From assembly GCA_002162675.1 (NCBI GenBank), contig MAAE01000047.1:1-64000 (forward strand): 64,000 bases of DNA. Direction: 5' to 3'. A program made the position numbers and the translations under genes. Origin of the DNA: Colwellia sp. 39_35_sub15_T18 (GTDB taxonomy: Bacteria > Pseudomonadota > Gammaproteobacteria > Enterobacterales > Alteromonadaceae). Below are positions 22,129-53,059 of this stretch, piece after piece. How positions within the stretch are numbered: the stretch's first letter is position 1; each line of letters starts with the position of its first letter. The notes below the pieces were generated by a model. That model saw nothing but the letters and a program-made list of their open reading frames with translations, had not been told where the DNA came from and searched no databases.

Positions 22129-22749
22129 TTAACCAAAAAATAATCGCCATAACCAACCGTGATCTAAATCAGCCTCACAGCTTTTTAATTGTGACGAATA
22201 ACGACGGGCACGGTTATCTACTTTTCTCGCTACTTTCACCAGCCAGCCTTTCTTTTTATATGTTTTACGCTTAAAGCCACCCCAGCCTTCGTGATAATTT
22301 AAATACTGGCTATAGGCATCCCATTTAGAAACACCATTGATTTTTTGTGTTTTATAAATAAACCAACCCATAAAATCAATAGCGTCATCAAAATCATCTC
22401 TATCAGCTCCTGAATTACCCGTTTCGCGGACATAATCACCCCAAGTCATCGTCTTGGCTTGTGAATAGCCATAAGCACTACTGACTCTTCCCCAAGGAAT
22501 AAAGCCCAATAAATAATCCCGTGGCGGTAAAGCATCATGCCTAAAAGAGCTTTCCTGATACATCATACTCATTGGCACATGAATCGGCACTCCCCAACGC
22601 TCTCTGGCATCTTTCGCGGCAAAATACCAATTTCGATGTTCACGGAAAATTTCACAAATATTTTCAGGATTTTTAGGTGGAGGGGTGGCGCAGCTTGATA
22701 AAAGTAAAATAGATATTGCGGTCACACAAATAGGTTTTACGAACAACAT
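22129..22749 (-). CDS. Transglycosylase SLT-like lipoprotein
   Basis: lipobox LLLSSC; MMYQESSFRHDALP, SSAYGYSQAKTMTW, YLNYHEGWGGF. Confidence 0.85.
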   Translation of the reverse strand: MLFVKPICVTAISILLLSSCATPPPKNPENICEIFREHRNWYFAAKDARERWGVPIHVPMSMMYQESSFRHDALPPRDYLLGFIPWGRVSSAYGYSQAKTMTWGDYVRETGNSGADRDDFDDAIDFMGWFIYKTQKINGVSKWDAYSQYLNYHEGWGGFKRKTYKKKGWLVKVARKVDNRARRYSSQLKSCEADLDHGWLWRLFFG

Positions 22750-22882
22750 AAAAAAAAACTATTAACAGAAAGTACTGACCTCAATAATGCCAGAGTTTTC
22801 AATCAATTTGCAGTATTTATATAACGCTATCGAAGATAAATTAAAATAGGTTGAATATTTTTATATTTTTTATAATTAATAT

Positions 22883-22911
22883 TGAACTTAATCAGAATGA
22901 AGCACTCTTAC
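22883..22911 (+). promoter_or_regulatory. Sigma-E-type promoter of array unit 1 (same architecture at 23044-23072, 23205-23233, 23356-23384, 23729-23757)
   Basis: TGAACTT-N16-TCTTAC; boxes and spacing invariant while spacer sequence varies. Confidence 0.65.
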
Positions 22912-22916
22912 TTATC

Positions 22917-22994
22917 AGTAATGTTATGTTATTCCTCCCTTTAGTAGATATGTTTCATGTTTTATGCGCTTATATTTTTAAGCGCATTTTTTTT
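22917..22994 (+). ncRNA. Array unit 1, type A sRNA (5' end estimated)
   Basis: TTATTCCTCCCTTTAG core; terminator ATGCGCTTA tatttt TAAGCGCAT + T8. Confidence 0.75.
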
Positions 22995-23077
22995 GCCTGA
23001 TTTTCAAGTGAATAATTTAAAAACATAAATTTTAAATTAATATTGAACTTAAACTAAATACAGCACTCTTACTTATC

Positions 23078-23155
23078 AGTAATGTTATGTTATTCCTCCC
23101 TTTAGTAGTTATATTTCATGTTTTATGCGCTTATATTTTTAAGCGCATTTTTTTT
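23078..23155 (+). ncRNA. Array unit 2, type A sRNA (5' end estimated)
   Basis: Same promoter; TTATTCCTCCCTTTAG core; terminator ATGCGCTTA/TAAGCGCAT + T run. Confidence 0.75.
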
Positions 23156-23238
23156 GCCTGATTTTCAGATTATGTAATTAAAATTAAAAAACATAAATTA
23201 ATTTTGAACTTAAACTAAATACAGCACTCTTACTTATC

Positions 23239-23306
23239 AGTAATGTTATGTTATTCCCTTAGTGTTTCATGTTTTATGCACCTATTTATGTAGGTGCATT
23301 TTTTTT
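23239..23306 (+). ncRNA. Array unit 3, type A sRNA with short internal deletion
   Basis: Same promoter; TTATTCCCTTAG; terminator ATGCACCTA tttatg TAGGTGCAT + T8. Confidence 0.7.
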
Positions 23307-23389
23307 GCCTGATTTTCAGATTATGTAATTAAAATTAAAAAACATAAATTAATTTTGAACTTAAACTAAAAAGAACACTCTTACTTATC

Positions 23390-23465
23390 AGTAATGTTAT
23401 GTTATTCCTCTCTTTATTAGTTATATTTCATGTTTTATGCATCTATTTTATAGATGCATTTTTTT
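23390..23465 (+). ncRNA. Array unit 4, type A sRNA
   Basis: Same promoter; TTATTCCTCTCTTTATTAG; terminator ATGCATCTA tttta TAGATGCAT + T7. Confidence 0.75.
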
Positions 23466-23503
23466 GCCTGATTTTCAGGTGACGGACAAGATAAAATAAC
23501 ATG

Positions 23504-23571
23504 CAGTTATTCCCGCTCTTATTAGATACGTTTCATGTTTTATGCACCTATTTATGTAGGTGCATTTTTTT
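23504..23571 (+). ncRNA. Array unit 5, type B sRNA (5' end uncertain)
   Basis: GTTATTCCCGCTCTTATTAG core; candidate -10 TAAAAT at 23492-23497; terminator ATGCACCTA/TAGGTGCAT + T7. Confidence 0.65.
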
Positions 23572-23610
23572 GCCTGATTTTCAGGTGATGGGACAAGATA
23601 AAATAACATG

Positions 23611-23679
23611 CAGTTATTCCCGCTCTTATTAGATACGTTTCATGTTTTATGCACCTATTTATCTAGGTGCATTTTTTTT
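23611..23679 (+). ncRNA. Array unit 6, type B sRNA (5' end uncertain)
   Basis: As unit 5; terminator ATGCACCTA tttatc TAGGTGCAT + T8. Confidence 0.65.
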
Positions 23680-23762
23680 ACCTAATTTTCAGATTATGTA
23701 ATTAAAATTAAAAAACATAAATTAATTTTGAACTTAAACTAAAAAGAACACTCTTACTTATC

Positions 23763-23838
23763 AGTAATGTTATGTTATTCCTCTCTTTATTAGTTATATT
23801 TCATGTTTTATGCATCTATTTTATAGATGCATTTTTTT
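23763..23838 (+). ncRNA. Array unit 7, type A sRNA (reads as identical to unit 4)
   Basis: TGAACTT-N16-TCTTAC; TTATTCCTCTCTTTATTAG; terminator ATGCATCTA/TAGATGCAT + T7. Confidence 0.75.
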
Positions 23839-23877
23839 GCCTGATTTTCAGGTGATGGGACAAGATAAAATAACATG

Positions 23878-23945
23878 CGGTTACTCCCGCTCTTATTAGA
23901 TACGTTTCATGTTTTATGCACCTATTTATCTAGGTGTATTTTTTT
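23878..23945 (+). ncRNA. Array unit 8, type B sRNA (5' end uncertain)
   Basis: GGTTACTCCCGCTCTTATTAG core; terminator ATGCACCTA/TAGGTGTAT (one G-U pair) + T7. Confidence 0.6.
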
Positions 23946-24019
23946 CTGATTTTCAAGAAATGAATAAAACTAAGAAGATCAGCACATTAAAAACAGGTTG
24001 ACTTTTCATGCTTGTTTTT

Positions 24020-24048
24020 TGAACTATTTGTTTTTTTCCGCGTCTTAA
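24020..24048 (+). promoter_or_regulatory. Sigma-E-type promoter of the MicA-like sRNA
   Basis: TGAACTA-N16-TCTTAA preceded by G (GTCTTAA). Confidence 0.6.
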
Positions 24049-24053
24049 TAAAT

Positions 24054-24170
24054 GAAAGCAACACTCCCTGAACTGCTTTCATATTGTTTTATTTTATAGA
24101 GTTGTTTAAGGTTTTTTAGACAAACCGAATGGCTTTATCCATAGCGCGTTGCCCTAACGCGCTTTTTTTT
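24054..24170 (+). ncRNA. Candidate MicA-like sRNA convergent with gshA (5' end estimated)
   Basis: ATGAAAGCA acactccctgaac TGCTTTCAT hairpin and terminator AGCGCGTT gccct AACGCGCT + T8. Confidence 0.65.
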
Positions 24171-24223
24171 GTCTGTGTTTTATCTTTATGCTTTTTGCTT
24201 TTGTGAGGAAGTTTTTCAGGTGC

Positions 24224-25810
24224 TTACTGTTGAAAGTAATCCGTTAAAAAATCGTCAAAGCTTAATTCGTCACCAGCTTCTATTTCACTCTGTGCTTGGT
24301 GAGATTTTTCAGCTTCATCAATAAAAAATTGCTCTGAATAGAACTGGTAATCTCGTGCTAACGCTTGTTGGCGATATTGAGCCGCTTTATTTAACGAGTA
24401 TTGAGAAAGGCTTTGCTCTTGCTCTAGCATAATCGCTAGAATTTGTGCCGAAGGGGTTAATTGCGCATCATTGATTTTTGCGCGTTCACGAGCAATTGAC
24501 TTGCTGTAATTATCACTTTGATAAGCCTTATCCAATAACGTCGCTACCTGTGCCATATTATCAAGCAGCTCATTGCCCCATTGAGTAATAGATTTAAGTA
24601 TGACTTCACCTTGGCAATTAGCATCAGATAATAACAACTCGGGATCTCGACCACGCATAACAACATCATTCATATTATTTTCATGATGTTGCTGTGAGTC
24701 ACAATCAAATTCTTTATTATCAACAAAAGCACAATAGGTCAAAAATATATCTAAAAAGTAAATTTGCTCAATATTAATCCCCGTATCTGCAAAAGGGTTT
24801 ACATCAAGCGCACGTACTTCTATATATTCAACACCACGGTCACGTAAAGCTTGTGATGGTTTTTCACCTGACTTAATCACTTGCTTAGGTCGAATTGGTG
24901 CATATAATTCATTTTCAATTTGCAGTACATTAGTATTAAGCTGTTGATATTCACCGTTAACTTTCAGGCCTATATCAGAGAATTGCGCTGACTTTAACGC
25001 TATCGCTTTTTGTACACCATCAACATAACCATCTAAATTGTTATAACAAATTTTTAAATTCGATTGCTCGCTACTCGTATAACCTAAGTCGCTCATGCGC
25101 AAAGAGGTTGCGTGCTCTAAATACAAAGCACCACCAGGCGATTTTTTAAAAGGTAATTGATGCTCCTTTCCTTGTAGAAAAGAGTCACACAAGGCTGGCG
25201 AACTACCATACAGATACGGAATCAACCAACAATAGCGCTTATAGTTACGCAAAATAGAGAAATAACGCTCTGAAATAAAATCAGATAACGGTGCTTTATC
25301 TTCATGAAGCTCTTGTTGTACTTGCCAGAACTCAGTGGAAAATGAAAAGTTAAAATGAATACCCGCAATAACTTGCATCATTGAGCCATAGCGATTTTTT
25401 AACCCTTGGCGATACACCGTTTTCATTTTACCAATATTTGAATCACCGTATTGCGCAAGTGGAATGTCATCTTCTTCGTCAACAAAACAAGGCATGCTCA
25501 TCGGCCACAATAACTCACCGTCAATGTTAGCAAAGGTATATTTTTGAATATCTTGTAATTGGGCTATCGCTTGCTCAGGGGAATGACTTACTGGGGTAAT
25601 AAATTCAAGCAAGGTTTCAGAATAATCAGTGGTAATTTGACCATGAGTTAATGCCGAGCCAAGCTGGCTATAATGGCCGTGCTTTGACAATTCGCCATCA
25701 GGCAATACTCTTAACGCTTCGCGTTCAATGCCACGACCAATACCAGTTAAGGCGTTCAGGTTACTCTCTTGATTAAATGCAGTGATGTAATCGTTTAATG
25801 ATAATGTCAA
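24224..25810 (-). CDS. gshA: Glutamate-cysteine ligase
   Basis: GRGIEREALRVLPDG...LTHGQITTDYSETLLEFITPV; YIEVRALDVNPF. Confidence 0.97.
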   Translation of the reverse strand: MTLSLNDYITAFNQESNLNALTGIGRGIEREALRVLPDGELSKHGHYSQLGSALTHGQITTDYSETLLEFITPVSHSPEQAIAQLQDIQKYTFANIDGELLWPMSMPCFVDEEDDIPLAQYGDSNIGKMKTVYRQGLKNRYGSMMQVIAGIHFNFSFSTEFWQVQQELHEDKAPLSDFISERYFSILRNYKRYCWLIPYLYGSSPALCDSFLQGKEHQLPFKKSPGGALYLEHATSLRMSDLGYTSSEQSNLKICYNNLDGYVDGVQKAIALKSAQFSDIGLKVNGEYQQLNTNVLQIENELYAPIRPKQVIKSGEKPSQALRDRGVEYIEVRALDVNPFADTGINIEQIYFLDIFLTYCAFVDNKEFDCDSQQHHENNMNDVVMRGRDPELLLSDANCQGEVILKSITQWGNELLDNMAQVATLLDKAYQSDNYSKSIARERAKINDAQLTPSAQILAIMLEQEQSLSQYSLNKAAQYRQQALARDYQFYSEQFFIDEAEKSHQAQSEIEAGDELSFDDFLTDYFQQ

Positions 25811-48262: not shown

Positions 48263-48847
48263 ATGACCAACAAAAATAATAAAAACCAGTTCACTAATAC
48301 CTTTATAAGTTATCAAAACACAATTCGTGGTTTTATTAGTCGTATTGTAAAACCTGACGATATTGATGACATAGTGCAAGAAACATTTGTACGCACCTAT
48401 GAAGCTAACCTTAAGCAAGAAATCAAGTACGCTCGCAGCTATATGCTTAAAACAGCCAAAAACCTCGCTTTTAATCATAATGCCAAGTGGGATAATAAAT
48501 TCAACGTCTCTATAGAGGATTTTATTGAACCACCTGTCGAATTAACTAGCACAACTTTTGAAGATGATTATGAATCAAAAGAACGGTTTTTATCTTTTTG
48601 CAAAGCCACAGATCAACTATCAGGCTCTGTACGCAAGTGCTTCATTTTAAAAAAAGTCTATGGTTTAAGCCAAAAAGAAATAGCGCAATATTTACAGCTG
48701 AGTGAAAGTACCGTTGAAAAGCATGTAGCGAAAGGGTTATTAAAAAGTGTACAATACATGCAAAAGTTGAACTATAACACCGAGCAAGGCTCTAAAGCTC
48801 AACTAAATAAAGTAAAAAAAACAAAATCGCAATCGTCAAATGGGTAA
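48263..48847 (+). CDS. ECF sigma-70 factor (FecI-like)
   Basis: DDIDDIVQETFVRTYEA; LSQKEIAQYLQLSESTVEKHVAKGL. Confidence 0.92.
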   Translation: MTNKNNKNQFTNTFISYQNTIRGFISRIVKPDDIDDIVQETFVRTYEANLKQEIKYARSYMLKTAKNLAFNHNAKWDNKFNVSIEDFIEPPVELTSTTFEDDYESKERFLSFCKATDQLSGSVRKCFILKKVYGLSQKEIAQYLQLSESTVEKHVAKGLLKSVQYMQKLNYNTEQGSKAQLNKVKKTKSQSSNG

Positions 48848-48888
48848 TAAGTTGAGTGCAACAACTTGTTGCGTAAATGAGTAAGTAG

Positions 48889-49971
48889 ATGAATAAGCAA
48901 ACCAATAATGTCAGTCAGTTCCACTCTAAAGAACAAATTCAAGAGCAAGCTTGTCTTTGGATAAGTCGTATGGATCGAGGCTTAAGCCCAAATGAACAGC
49001 AAGATTTAGTTACTTGGTGTAATCAAAATACCAGCCATCATAGCACTTTGCTTGAAATGGCTGCTTATTGGGATGATATTTCTGTACTCAATGAGTTAAG
49101 TGGCTTATTCCCTTTAGAAAAAAATAATCAACCCCGTAATAAATTTGCTGTTTTTGCCTTAGCAGCCAGTGTTGCACTTGTGTCTTTACTCGGTGCTAAC
49201 ACATTGATGAGTAAATCATTCTTACCATTTTTACCTTCTCTTAATGAGCACACCTTAACGCAAACTCAAACCTTGAGTAGCCCCATTGGTAAACAAAGTA
49301 CTTTCACCATGAACGATGGTACTCATATTCAATTAAACACTAATAGCGTTGTTGAAGTCGCTTATACTGCATCGTATCGCCAACTAACTTTAGTTAAAGG
49401 TGAAGCGAGATTTGATGTTGCTAAAGATAAGTCTCGACCATTTACCGTCACCTCAGGTGAAAAATCTTTTACCGCTTTAGGTACTATTTTTAATGTGCAG
49501 AAAGATGGTGATCATGAAATGGAATTAATGGTTACTGAAGGTCGAGTATTGATTACCAAGGCAAGTGCAGCCATTGAAATAATAAAGCAAACCTTGCTGA
49601 CCTCAAATGAGCATACCTCTGCTAAAGACCTTCCCGGAATTTTAGTCACCTCAGGTGAAAAAGCGGTAATAGAGCAACATATTGCCACGCCAGTACAAAA
49701 GGTATCTTTAGATCAAGTACAACGAGATCTTGCTTGGCAACAAGGCATGCTTGTCTTTGATGGCGAATTATTATCAAAGGCATTGGTTGAGATTAGTCGA
49801 TATACCTCAAGCCACTTTGAAATAGTAGATCCTCAAATAGCCAATGTTAAAGTATCTGGTTATTTTAAAGCTAATGATGTTGACGGTTTATTAGCGTCAC
49901 TAAATAGCAACTTTAATATCAGTTTTAGCAAACGTGCTGATAACACAATATTACTCGCTTTGGCTGAGTAA
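48889..49971 (+). CDS. FecR-family anti-sigma/sensor protein
   Basis: SPIGKQSTFTMNDGTHIQLNTNSVVEV...LVKGEARFDVAKDKSRPFTVTSG. Confidence 0.92.
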   Translation: MNKQTNNVSQFHSKEQIQEQACLWISRMDRGLSPNEQQDLVTWCNQNTSHHSTLLEMAAYWDDISVLNELSGLFPLEKNNQPRNKFAVFALAASVALVSLLGANTLMSKSFLPFLPSLNEHTLTQTQTLSSPIGKQSTFTMNDGTHIQLNTNSVVEVAYTASYRQLTLVKGEARFDVAKDKSRPFTVTSGEKSFTALGTIFNVQKDGDHEMELMVTEGRVLITKASAAIEIIKQTLLTSNEHTSAKDLPGILVTSGEKAVIEQHIATPVQKVSLDQVQRDLAWQQGMLVFDGELLSKALVEISRYTSSHFEIVDPQIANVKVSGYFKANDVDGLLASLNSNFNISFSKRADNTILLALAE

Positions 49972-50116
49972 GACTTAAATCATCTATCTTTAATTTTATC
50001 CCTCTTACTTTCTCTATATATTACTGGCTATTTTCAGCTATTTAACTTAATTTAGACAATTCTCAAAGAATAAAAAAAACTATAGAGGATTTCCCCTGCT
50101 CACTTGTTTATTAATA

Positions 50117-53059
50117 TTGCGCAGTTGGCGAAAGTTATTTCGCCTGCTTCAAAACACAGCGTCATTCAAAAGCACCATCACCATTGTCACTACCGTGTTA
50201 ATGCTGCTTAGTGCTTCAAAAGTTTATGCTGATGATTTGAATCGTTTTGATATTGACAAACAACGAGCTGACAAAGCTTTAATTGCATTTGCACAAAAGG
50301 CAAATCAAACTATTATATTTTCGTTTGATTTAACTAAACAACACCAAGCAAATGCATTAAAAGGCTACTATTCAGTACAGTCAGGCCTAAAAAAATTATT
50401 AAAAGGCTCTGGTTTAATCGCTGTTGTTAATAACTCTGGTCAACTGAGCATTCAAGTTGATAAACACTATAGAGGAATAACAACAATGAAAAATAAAACA
50501 ATAAAAACCATTTTGGTACCCATGATCTTAGGGGCGGCCAGTCAAACTGCTTTGGCTCAAGAGCCAGCACAAGTAACAGAGCAAGAAGTAGAAAAAATAT
50601 CTATTATCGGCAGTCGTGTTGCAGGACGTTCAGCAGATGACTTACCCGTACCCGTTGATATTCTTTCAGCTGAAGCTTTAGCCAATACCGGCCAAACTGA
50701 AGTGGGTAGAATGCTACAGGCTATTGCTCCTTCTTTTAACTTTTCTAGCTCAGCGATTAGTGATGGTACCGATGCCTTACGTCCAGCGACCTTACGTGGT
50801 TTAGGACCAGATCAAACCTTAGTATTGATTAATGGTAAACGTCGCCATCAAGCCAGTTTAATTCACATTAATACTTCAGTGGGTCGTGGCACAGCGGGTA
50901 CAGACATGAATGCTATTCCCGCATCGGCAATAAAACGTATCGAAGTATTACGTGATGGTGCAGCAGCCCAATATGGCTCTGATGCTATTGCTGGGGTAAT
51001 TAATATTGTTTTAAATGATACTGATGAAGGCGGTAAAGTAGCAGTATCTTATGGCGAATACTCAGAAGGTGATGGTGAAACCACCAACATCGATATAACT
51101 AAAGGCTTTGCTTTAGGTGATAGTGGTTATTTAAATACTACATTAAACTTTCGTGACCGCGGCTTTACCAACAGAGCGGGCTTACATGGCTCTTGTCAAT
51201 TTTCTGGCTGTACCGATGCTGGTAATGGCAGTATGTTATTAGGTGACCCACGTGAAGCGACAGCAACGCGTAATACCTTTAGAATTGGTGATGCTGATTC
51301 AAATCAATTTGGCTTAACGGTTAACACAGGTTACCAATTAGGTGATGGCGAGCTTTACGGCTTTATCACCTATTCAAAACGTGACAATGAATCCGCAGCC
51401 TTTTTCCGCCATAATGCTAATAATGGTGGTAATGCCCCTTTACAAGATGGCGATGCTACTATCCCGGCAGGTTTTTTACCTAAAATCAATTCAGATATTA
51501 AAGATATGTCTTATAACTTTGGTTATCAAACTGACTTTGAAAATGGTGCGAGTTTAGACTTCTCATATACCTATGGTCAAAACAATATTGACTATACAAC
51601 GAGTAATACAATCAATTCATCTTTTGCTAACTCATTGCAATATAATACTGACGGCTCTCTTGCCAACATTACCCCTGATGAAATTCGCAGCGCTGTGCCT
51701 CGTCAAGCTTTTGCTTACGGGTTAGAACTAGCCTTATCAACCTTGAACCTTGATTATACTCAAGACTTCGATCTATTTTCATTAGCAATGGGCGCTGAAA
51801 TTCGTACCGATACTTATAAAATTACCCCGGGTGATGAGTATTCTTATCGTGATTACGATACAATTTTGGGTGAAAGTTTGTTTGACACAGATAGAAGTGC
51901 TGGTACCCAAGGTTTTGGTGGCATAGGCCCTGTTTCTGAAGTTGATGAAACTCGTGATGTTATTTCTTTCTACGCGGATGTAGAAATGGAAATAACTGAA
52001 GATTTAATTGTTAGTGGTGCCGCTCGTTATGATGACTATGAAGGTTTTGGCGATAGCACCAACTTTAAACTCGCTGCTAACTGGTCGTTAACCGAAGATG
52101 TAGCCATTCGTGGTGCGGTAAGTACAGGTTTTAGAGCACCATCAATGCAACAACTATATTTTAACAATATCAGTACTCAGTTTAAAAGCAATCCAGATGA
52201 TCCTGGTGGTGACCAAATTGCCGTTCAAGTGGGTACTTTTAGAAATGACTCTACTTTAGCGCAAGCTATTGGCATTCCACAGCTTAAAGAAGAAGAAGCG
52301 ACTAACTTAAGTTTAGGTACCGTTATTCGACTTGCTGATAATATCAACCTGACTATTGACTGGTATTCCATTGATATTGACGATCGTATCGTGCTTAGTA
52401 ATTCATTAGGCGAAGGTTTATCTCCTGCATTAGATGCGGCTTTAACCGCTTCTGGCGCTGGCGGTGGACAATTTTTCTTAAATGGTGCTGATACTGAAAC
52501 CACAGGTATTGATATTATCGCCACTTGGAATACTGAACTGTTGGGTGGTGATTTAGACTTAACGTTTGCAGCCAACTTCACCGAAACAGATGTGGTCAGC
52601 ATTTTTGCACCAAAAGATAGCGGTTTAGGTAATATTGCCCCAGAAGATATTTTTTCTGAACAAGATATTTCTATTATTGAAGATTGGCAACCACAAGACC
52701 GTATAAGCTTAAGTGGCTTGTATAAAACGGGTGATTTCACTGTCAATTTAGCCTTTAATCGTTATGGCGAATACACCATTACTGATGGCGGCACACAAAC
52801 TTATGGCGCTGAAATATTAACGGATTTACGTGTTAGCTATCAAATGACGGATAACTTATCATTTAATATTGGCGGTAATAACTTGTTTGATGTTTACCCA
52901 GACAAGAATGAGATTGGTAACTCTCGTACAGGAAGTATTGTTGATGGTAACGGTAACTCGATTGTCGATAGCCAAGGGGTATTTACCTACTCTCGTCGCT
53001 CTGCGCCGTTTGGCTTTAACGGTGCATTTTACTATGCCGGTGCTGAATACACATTCTAG
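50117..53059 (+). CDS. TonB-dependent receptor with N-terminal STN (signalling) domain
   Basis: STN region RADKALIAFAQKANQTIIFSFDLTK; plug/barrel VLRDGAAAQYGSDAIAGVINIVL, C-terminal AFYYAGAEYTF; TTG start in the ORF track. Confidence 0.9.
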   Translation: MRSWRKLFRLLQNTASFKSTITIVTTVLMLLSASKVYADDLNRFDIDKQRADKALIAFAQKANQTIIFSFDLTKQHQANALKGYYSVQSGLKKLLKGSGLIAVVNNSGQLSIQVDKHYRGITTMKNKTIKTILVPMILGAASQTALAQEPAQVTEQEVEKISIIGSRVAGRSADDLPVPVDILSAEALANTGQTEVGRMLQAIAPSFNFSSSAISDGTDALRPATLRGLGPDQTLVLINGKRRHQASLIHINTSVGRGTAGTDMNAIPASAIKRIEVLRDGAAAQYGSDAIAGVINIVLNDTDEGGKVAVSYGEYSEGDGETTNIDITKGFALGDSGYLNTTLNFRDRGFTNRAGLHGSCQFSGCTDAGNGSMLLGDPREATATRNTFRIGDADSNQFGLTVNTGYQLGDGELYGFITYSKRDNESAAFFRHNANNGGNAPLQDGDATIPAGFLPKINSDIKDMSYNFGYQTDFENGASLDFSYTYGQNNIDYTTSNTINSSFANSLQYNTDGSLANITPDEIRSAVPRQAFAYGLELALSTLNLDYTQDFDLFSLAMGAEIRTDTYKITPGDEYSYRDYDTILGESLFDTDRSAGTQGFGGIGPVSEVDETRDVISFYADVEMEITEDLIVSGAARYDDYEGFGDSTNFKLAANWSLTEDVAIRGAVSTGFRAPSMQQLYFNNISTQFKSNPDDPGGDQIAVQVGTFRNDSTLAQAIGIPQLKEEEATNLSLGTVIRLADNINLTIDWYSIDIDDRIVLSNSLGEGLSPALDAALTASGAGGGQFFLNGADTETTGIDIIATWNTELLGGDLDLTFAANFTETDVVSIFAPKDSGLGNIAPEDIFSEQDISIIEDWQPQDRISLSGLYKTGDFTVNLAFNRYGEYTITDGGTQTYGAEILTDLRVSYQMTDNLSFNIGGNNLFDVYPDKNEIGNSRTGSIVDGNGNSIVDSQGVFTYSRRSAPFGFNGAFYYAGAEYTF

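Follow-up and report, generated by a model that had tools for sequence, protein, structure and literature searches.

Between a transglycosylase gene and gshA, the window analysed here (a 64,000-nucleotide stretch of Colwellia DNA) carries a run of closely similar repeats. This raises the question of whether they are tandem sibling genes for small RNAs (sRNAs), as the original prediction held, and, if so, what controls them and what they act on. That prediction described eight units in two related classes, ordered A A A A B B A B, and the arrangement is confirmed, with all units on the + strand at 22884-23945. Its account of the extent of the array stands for these eight A/B units only, since the cluster is longer by a ninth predicted sRNA gene of different sequence, here called class C. 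The units and their neighbours are as follows.

22129-22749, - strand: SLT_4-domain transglycosylase (PF19489), transcribed away from the array; marks one flank
22884-22994, + strand: unit A1; sigma-E-type promoter 22884-22910, predicted start 22917, T-run ending at 22994, predicted RNA 78 nt
23045-23155, + strand: unit A2; promoter 23045-23071, predicted start 23078, end 23155, 78 nt
23206-23306, + strand: unit A3; promoter 23206-23232, predicted start 23239, end 23306, 68 nt
23357-23465, + strand: unit A4; promoter 23357-23383, predicted start 23390, end 23465, 76 nt
23494-23571, + strand: unit B5; lacks a sigma-E-type promoter, has the conserved AAUAAC/GUUAUU hairpin at its 5′ side and a terminator reaching 23571
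23601-23679, + strand: unit B6; same features as B5 (no sigma-E-type promoter, 5′ hairpin, terminator)
23730-23838, + strand: unit A7; promoter 23730-23756, predicted start 23763, end 23838, 76 nt
23868-23945, + strand: unit B8; like B5, with the 5′ stem variant GUUACU
24021-24171, + strand: class C, predicted ninth sRNA gene; promoter GAACTA-N16-TCTTA at 24021-24047, predicted start 24054; adjoins gshA
24224-25810, - strand: gshA, encoding glutamate-cysteine ligase (PF04262) and convergent with the array; marks the other flank, outside the sRNA system

Each of the eight A/B units contains the exact 15-mer TTTCATGTTTTATGC (at 22953, 23114, 23265, 23426, 23531, 23638, 23799 and 23905, always on the + strand), which occurs nowhere outside the array in the 4.0 Mb genome. 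Start-to-start spacings of 151-161 for class A and 105-108 for class B bear out the unit lengths of about 150 and 105 bp first proposed. An intrinsic terminator facing the + direction lies at the end of every unit, again as anticipated; the stretch holds nine such sites versus 0.4 in shuffled sequences, so they are not attributable to chance. A further element, GCCTGATTTTCAG, is exact in five of the eight units and present as a variant in the other three. Among the class A units, A3 is the form nearest the genus consensus, and the predicted RNA of A7 is identical to that of A4.

The conservation is not due to protein coding, since no ORF of at least 80 aa lies in the array, in line with the original prediction, and the linkers between conserved blocks differ in length by non-multiples of three. 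A short class A frame, AUG UUA UUC CCU UAG, is not kept in class B, and a coding role was rejected. The predicted RNAs are more stable than shuffled sequences (z -3.2 to -4.3), and the terminator stem covaries, with 51 double-changed cells against 18.6 in shuffles, a value that none of 500 shuffles reached. The 5′ part of the class A genus form is open in predicted folds. Class B has the 5′ stem AAUAAC/GUUAUU, complete with six pairs in 28 of 47 distinct sequences; shifted controls gave five pairs in about 1%. Conserved promoters, a mostly open conserved 5′ part, covarying terminators and genus-wide presence together support the reading of the array as tandem sibling sRNA genes, the transcripts of which are as yet unobserved.

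All five class A units of the array carry the motif GAACTT-N16-TCTTA, a sigma-E-type promoter. Class A had been predicted to have its own promoter and does so, of sigma-E rather than sigma-70 type; no sigma-70 promoter-like pair is found in 22700-24250. The same motif lies just upstream of this genome's rpoE (contig C26, 25630-25656; gene at 24973-25542, identified by a TIGR02939 match of 317.7 bits), as expected of a sigma-E gene under autoregulation. In the first scan of relatives, which allowed spacers of 10-22, the spacer measured 16 in every one of the 62 class A promoters, and a position logo has conserved -35 and -10 blocks with the spacer free. Our control, Escherichia coli micA, has GAACTC-N16-TCTGA and starts 7 nt downstream. 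When this 7-nt rule is applied, the class A RNAs are predicted to start with AGUAAUG and to be 68-78 nt long, which agrees with the 68-80 nt first suggested. Genome-wide, the promoter pattern with a free spacer is barely commoner than in a reversed control (13 versus 10), so that the assignment rests on position and conservation. The criterion for a sigma-E-dependent sRNA of a promoter resembling that of the genome's own rpoE is met at the motif level only, and control of the array units by sigma-E in the cell is inferred from sequence. Elsewhere in the genome, a sigma-E-type promoter (contig C2, 123167-123193, - strand; L009) lies 53 nt before the gene for a 222-aa multi-pass membrane protein, which by eye we take to be Bax-inhibitor-1/YccA-like.

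In most loci class C closes the row of units. Its terminator lies at 24143-24163, followed by a T-run, and its predicted RNA of about 118 nt (24054-24171) has a hairpin at the 5′ start with CUCCCUGAAC in the loop. The position beside gshA is also kept in other genera of the family. Weak matches to the class C model beyond the family lack a sigma-E promoter, resemble unrelated terminators and were rejected.

The eight units are real, but the account based on them missed two solitary class A copies on other contigs (C47, 1342-1411, and C39, 68495-68572; L099 and L110), each with its own sigma-E-type promoter. With these, the class A/B copies in this genome (G000) number 10. As the promoter pattern and the RNA model found the solitary copies separately, the two lines of evidence support each other. 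No common neighbours of these copies were found in short flanks. A short palindrome, CTGATTTTCAG / CTGAAATTCAG, follows most T-runs of the array (window 23000-23960) and is also present in relatives; it is absent after the solitary copies inspected.

A covariance model built from the eight units matched 35 of the 39 genus genomes, mostly in several copies, and a second model recovered two of the remaining four, so that at least 37 of the 39 species of the genus have matches. Among 395 genomes of the order, ten match, all within the same family (seven genera), and an exact-pattern scan of 84,980 species genomes yielded 33 loci, all named Colwellia or Litorilituus. By these searches, the predicted sRNA family is confined to one bacterial family. 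Comparison of the region downstream of gshA, which had been proposed along with the original prediction, places an array in that slot in about 20 relatives. The genes follow one another in a fixed order: CNNM/CorC-like gene, transglycosylase (-), array (+), gshA (-), M16 peptidase. The succession transglycosylase, array, gshA is seen in 29 loci having both flanks (about 20 species, some counted twice), with 1-12 units and unit strings ranging from A to ABBBAABABABB. One complete relative genome (G021) has two arrays, at C1:3413600-3414593 and 3427397-3428092, 13-14 kb apart.

In another family of the order, four genomes (L155, L163, L165 and L171) have sigma-E-type promoters followed by short RNAs containing UUUUCAUGACAUC/UUUUCAUGUCAYAUCCCUG and a terminator. 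These putative RNAs lie about 1.3-1.5 kb from a gshA match, are tandem in two of the four genomes, and possibly form an independent sigma-E sRNA cluster near gshA. Three sites in other genera or families (L158, L162 and L172) show a single sigma-E-type promoter just downstream of gshA and then a terminator, and are candidate sRNAs in the gshA slot.

What might such RNAs do? We consider it probable that the locus represses outer-membrane proteins in the manner of MicA, from several gene copies and under sigma-E. The sequences themselves show the architecture, the conserved motifs and slot, the covariation and the excess complementarity, whereas transcription, sigma-E control, Hfq binding, repression and class B expression are all inferred. 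Under this proposal, outer-membrane stress would cause sigma-E to transcribe class A and class C from the GAACTT/A-N16-TCTTA promoters, and every transcript would end at its own terminator, giving RNAs of about 118 nt for class C and 68-78 nt for class A. In class A, the single-stranded core, AGUAAUGUUAUUCCC..UUAGUGUUUCAUGUUUUAUGC, would pair, most likely with Hfq, with TonB-receptor mRNAs in their Shine-Dalgarno and start-codon regions (AAUAACAU, AACAUGAAA) and so block translation, the copies multiplying the dose. Class B RNAs would come from read-through of the upstream terminators and subsequent processing, or else depend on some weak promoter that is not of this type. Sequence features of Hfq-dependent sRNAs, namely an hfq gene in the genome and terminators with a run of at least seven U, are present; the binding of Hfq to the array RNAs is an inference.

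The choice of TonB-dependent receptors as targets depends on complementarity in start regions. In this genome the TonB receptor barrel family has 41 matches. The test set comprised 698 genes called from around 0.86 Mb, about a fifth of the genome, with gene starts from our own simple calling method. A perfect complement of at least 8 nt to class A is present in the start regions of 39% of 28 TonB-dependent receptors. Among 68 other signal-peptide genes the share is 9-10%, and among 599 genes of other kinds it is 8%; only 0-2 of 500 dinucleotide-shuffled sRNAs reach the receptor value. Ten further receptors of this genome gave 30%, in the same direction, and three other genomes gave 33% of 27 receptors, a figure reached by 3 of 500 shuffles. 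Start-region complementarity is marginal for class B and shows no excess for class C. In the best case, the receptor at C47:150984, 11 nt (AAACATGAAAC) span the start codon, and upstream CTAAGGG is complementary to the UCCCUUAG part of class A. Mean duplex energies separated receptors from other genes weakly, in the same direction, and proved too noisy as a target test; seed counting was used instead. Two observations concern receptor genes themselves. One TonB-receptor gene of this genome (C1:426027-428704) lies in two frames of 347 and 545 aa, possibly through a frameshift or sequencing error. In the window at 48269-52885, an ECF sigma factor-like gene (48269-48721) stands upstream of a TonB-dependent receptor (barrel 51362-52885) in a FecI-like arrangement.

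It could be argued that the RNAs are indeed sigma-E-driven siblings but that their main targets are not outer-membrane receptors, the start matches being a by-product of ATGAAA-rich starts. Outer-membrane genes often begin with ATGAAA after AAAC, letters shared with the class A core, of which the part UUUCAUGUUUU mirrors the common start context, and duplex energies alone discriminate weakly; the signal-peptide control lowers this bias and may not remove it. The excess nevertheless persists when the comparison is with other signal-peptide genes (p about 0.001-0.002) or with shuffled sRNAs, and it recurs in other genomes, while the class C RNA, serving as a control, has none, and we think this explanation unlikely. 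Far less credible still, and scarcely tenable in our opinion, is that the repeats are a DNA element or terminator bank, REP/MITE-like or insulating the convergent genes, without an RNA product. Unequal recombination would produce just such tandem copies in variable number, but it is the promoter hexamers and 5′ core that are conserved while terminator letters change in covarying pairs; moreover, all units point one way and the same promoter is found on solitary copies elsewhere. Nor is this a mobile element, since the slot is fixed across the genus.

Within the preferred reading, a sigma-E-driven repressor locus, class B is the least certain part. Class B units have no sigma-E-type promoter and always lie behind another unit: in the 29 loci, an A or B unit precedes 81 of the 82, mostly at a distance of 91-113 nt, and the remaining one carries a class A promoter that departs from the motif at a single position, TCTCA. 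Only 20-35 nt separate the upstream T-run from the class B 5′ hairpin, which leaves little space for a promoter. Our preferred route, which is inferred, is read-through and processing, for which Pseudomonas PrrH provides a precedent of reading through a tandem sRNA terminator; a caveat is that a promoterless class B would need passage through up to four terminators. Class B units might instead be separate genes with weak sigma-70 promoters, or ageing class A copies that have lost theirs. TAGAAT/TAAAAT-like hexamers do precede many class B 5′ hairpins, and terminators are decayed in some class B copies. Yet no conserved -35 region accompanies those hexamers, nor is there a sigma-70-like pair in the interval searched, and decay can account neither for a class-specific 5′ hairpin kept across species nor for class B never being first in an array. 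We find these alternatives somewhat unlikely without being able to set them aside. If read-through does operate, the locus may be a graded-output device, in which each of a small number of sigma-E promoters (A) serves a trailing series of promoterless sisters (B) that appear only on read-through of one or more terminators, the dose and kind of sRNA shifting with the strength of the stress; copy number (1 to 12) would be tuned by recombination between species to match large sets of TonB receptors. This idea is tentative, and we would sooner expect it to fail than to hold.

What is unusual about this system is how many siblings it has, that two classes interleave, and that copy number varies while the slot stays fixed, and to our knowledge the array would rank among the largest sister-sRNA arrays. 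If the proposal is true, the sigma-E sRNA branch, mainly studied in enteric bacteria and Vibrio, extends to marine Colwellia and relatives, with TonB-dependent receptors as the predicted main clients. The A(B)n order would then offer a natural test of terminator read-through setting sRNA dose, and the conserved gshA slot raises the question of whether the micA locus is older than MicA as now defined.

An Rfam search of the window, one of the checks first proposed, returned nothing at gathering score, and no earlier report of these RNAs was found in the open-access literature. Matches to JA04, RprA, SpF41 and VqmR fell far below threshold. The best of them, the Aggregatibacter sRNA JA04 (RF02732), resembles class B in its layout of 5′ hairpin, linker and terminator, but at 31.4 bits (E 0.028) against a gathering score of 81, membership was rejected.

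The closest parallel in position is MicA. In E. coli K-12 the slot reads luxS(-), micA(+), gshA(-), and MicA, like the array, lies 3′ of and convergent with gshA and 5′ of a divergent gene (PMC4618604). MicA also has a sigma-E-type promoter with an N16 spacer, a length of about 70 nt and a 3′ terminator, and, like the predicted class C RNA, it starts GAAAG.. and contains UCCCUGAA. MicA acts on ompA, which it represses through pairing of its 5′ end. MicA is, however, single-copy, whereas the Colwellia locus has eight class A/B units plus class C, and the place of luxS is taken by the PF19489 transglycosylase. The MicA model (RF00078) found nothing in the window up to E 5 and nothing in relatives at gathering, with an E. 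coli positive control of 83.9 bits; the class C model scored only 12 bits (E 1.8) on E. coli micA. Homology to MicA by sequence is unsupported by model searches in either direction, and class C is not provably homologous to it. Slot and promoter agree with MicA, but the failed model test and the missing luxS mean that the locus cannot be assigned to it.

Other sigma-E sRNAs, RybB, MicL, VrrA and MicV, are single-copy genes at other loci with no sequence match to the array in Rfam. They share with it the sigma-E promoter and, in the case of the array as a prediction, outer-membrane start-region pairing. In enteric bacteria and Vibrio, such sRNAs pair close to the start codon of mRNAs for outer-membrane proteins and repress them (PMC1804206, PMC2628432, PMC4618604).

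In its near-identical copies within one genome, the array resembles the sibling sRNAs Qrr, OmrA/B, PrrF, csRNA, AbcR, Listeria LhrC1-5 and Rhodobacter CcsR1-4, some of which are tandem. These families are driven by other regulators, and LhrC has UCCC-type anti-Shine-Dalgarno motifs that the array shares. The interleaving of two classes, with and without promoter, is a feature of the array not described in PMC4211561. Eight copies had been thought unusually many, and this is borne out by the comparison: the eight consecutive class A/B units, and the maximum of 12 reached by one relative, stand against the 2 to 6 members, tandem or scattered, given for Qrr, OmrA/B, PrrF, csRNA and AbcR in a review (PMC4211561).
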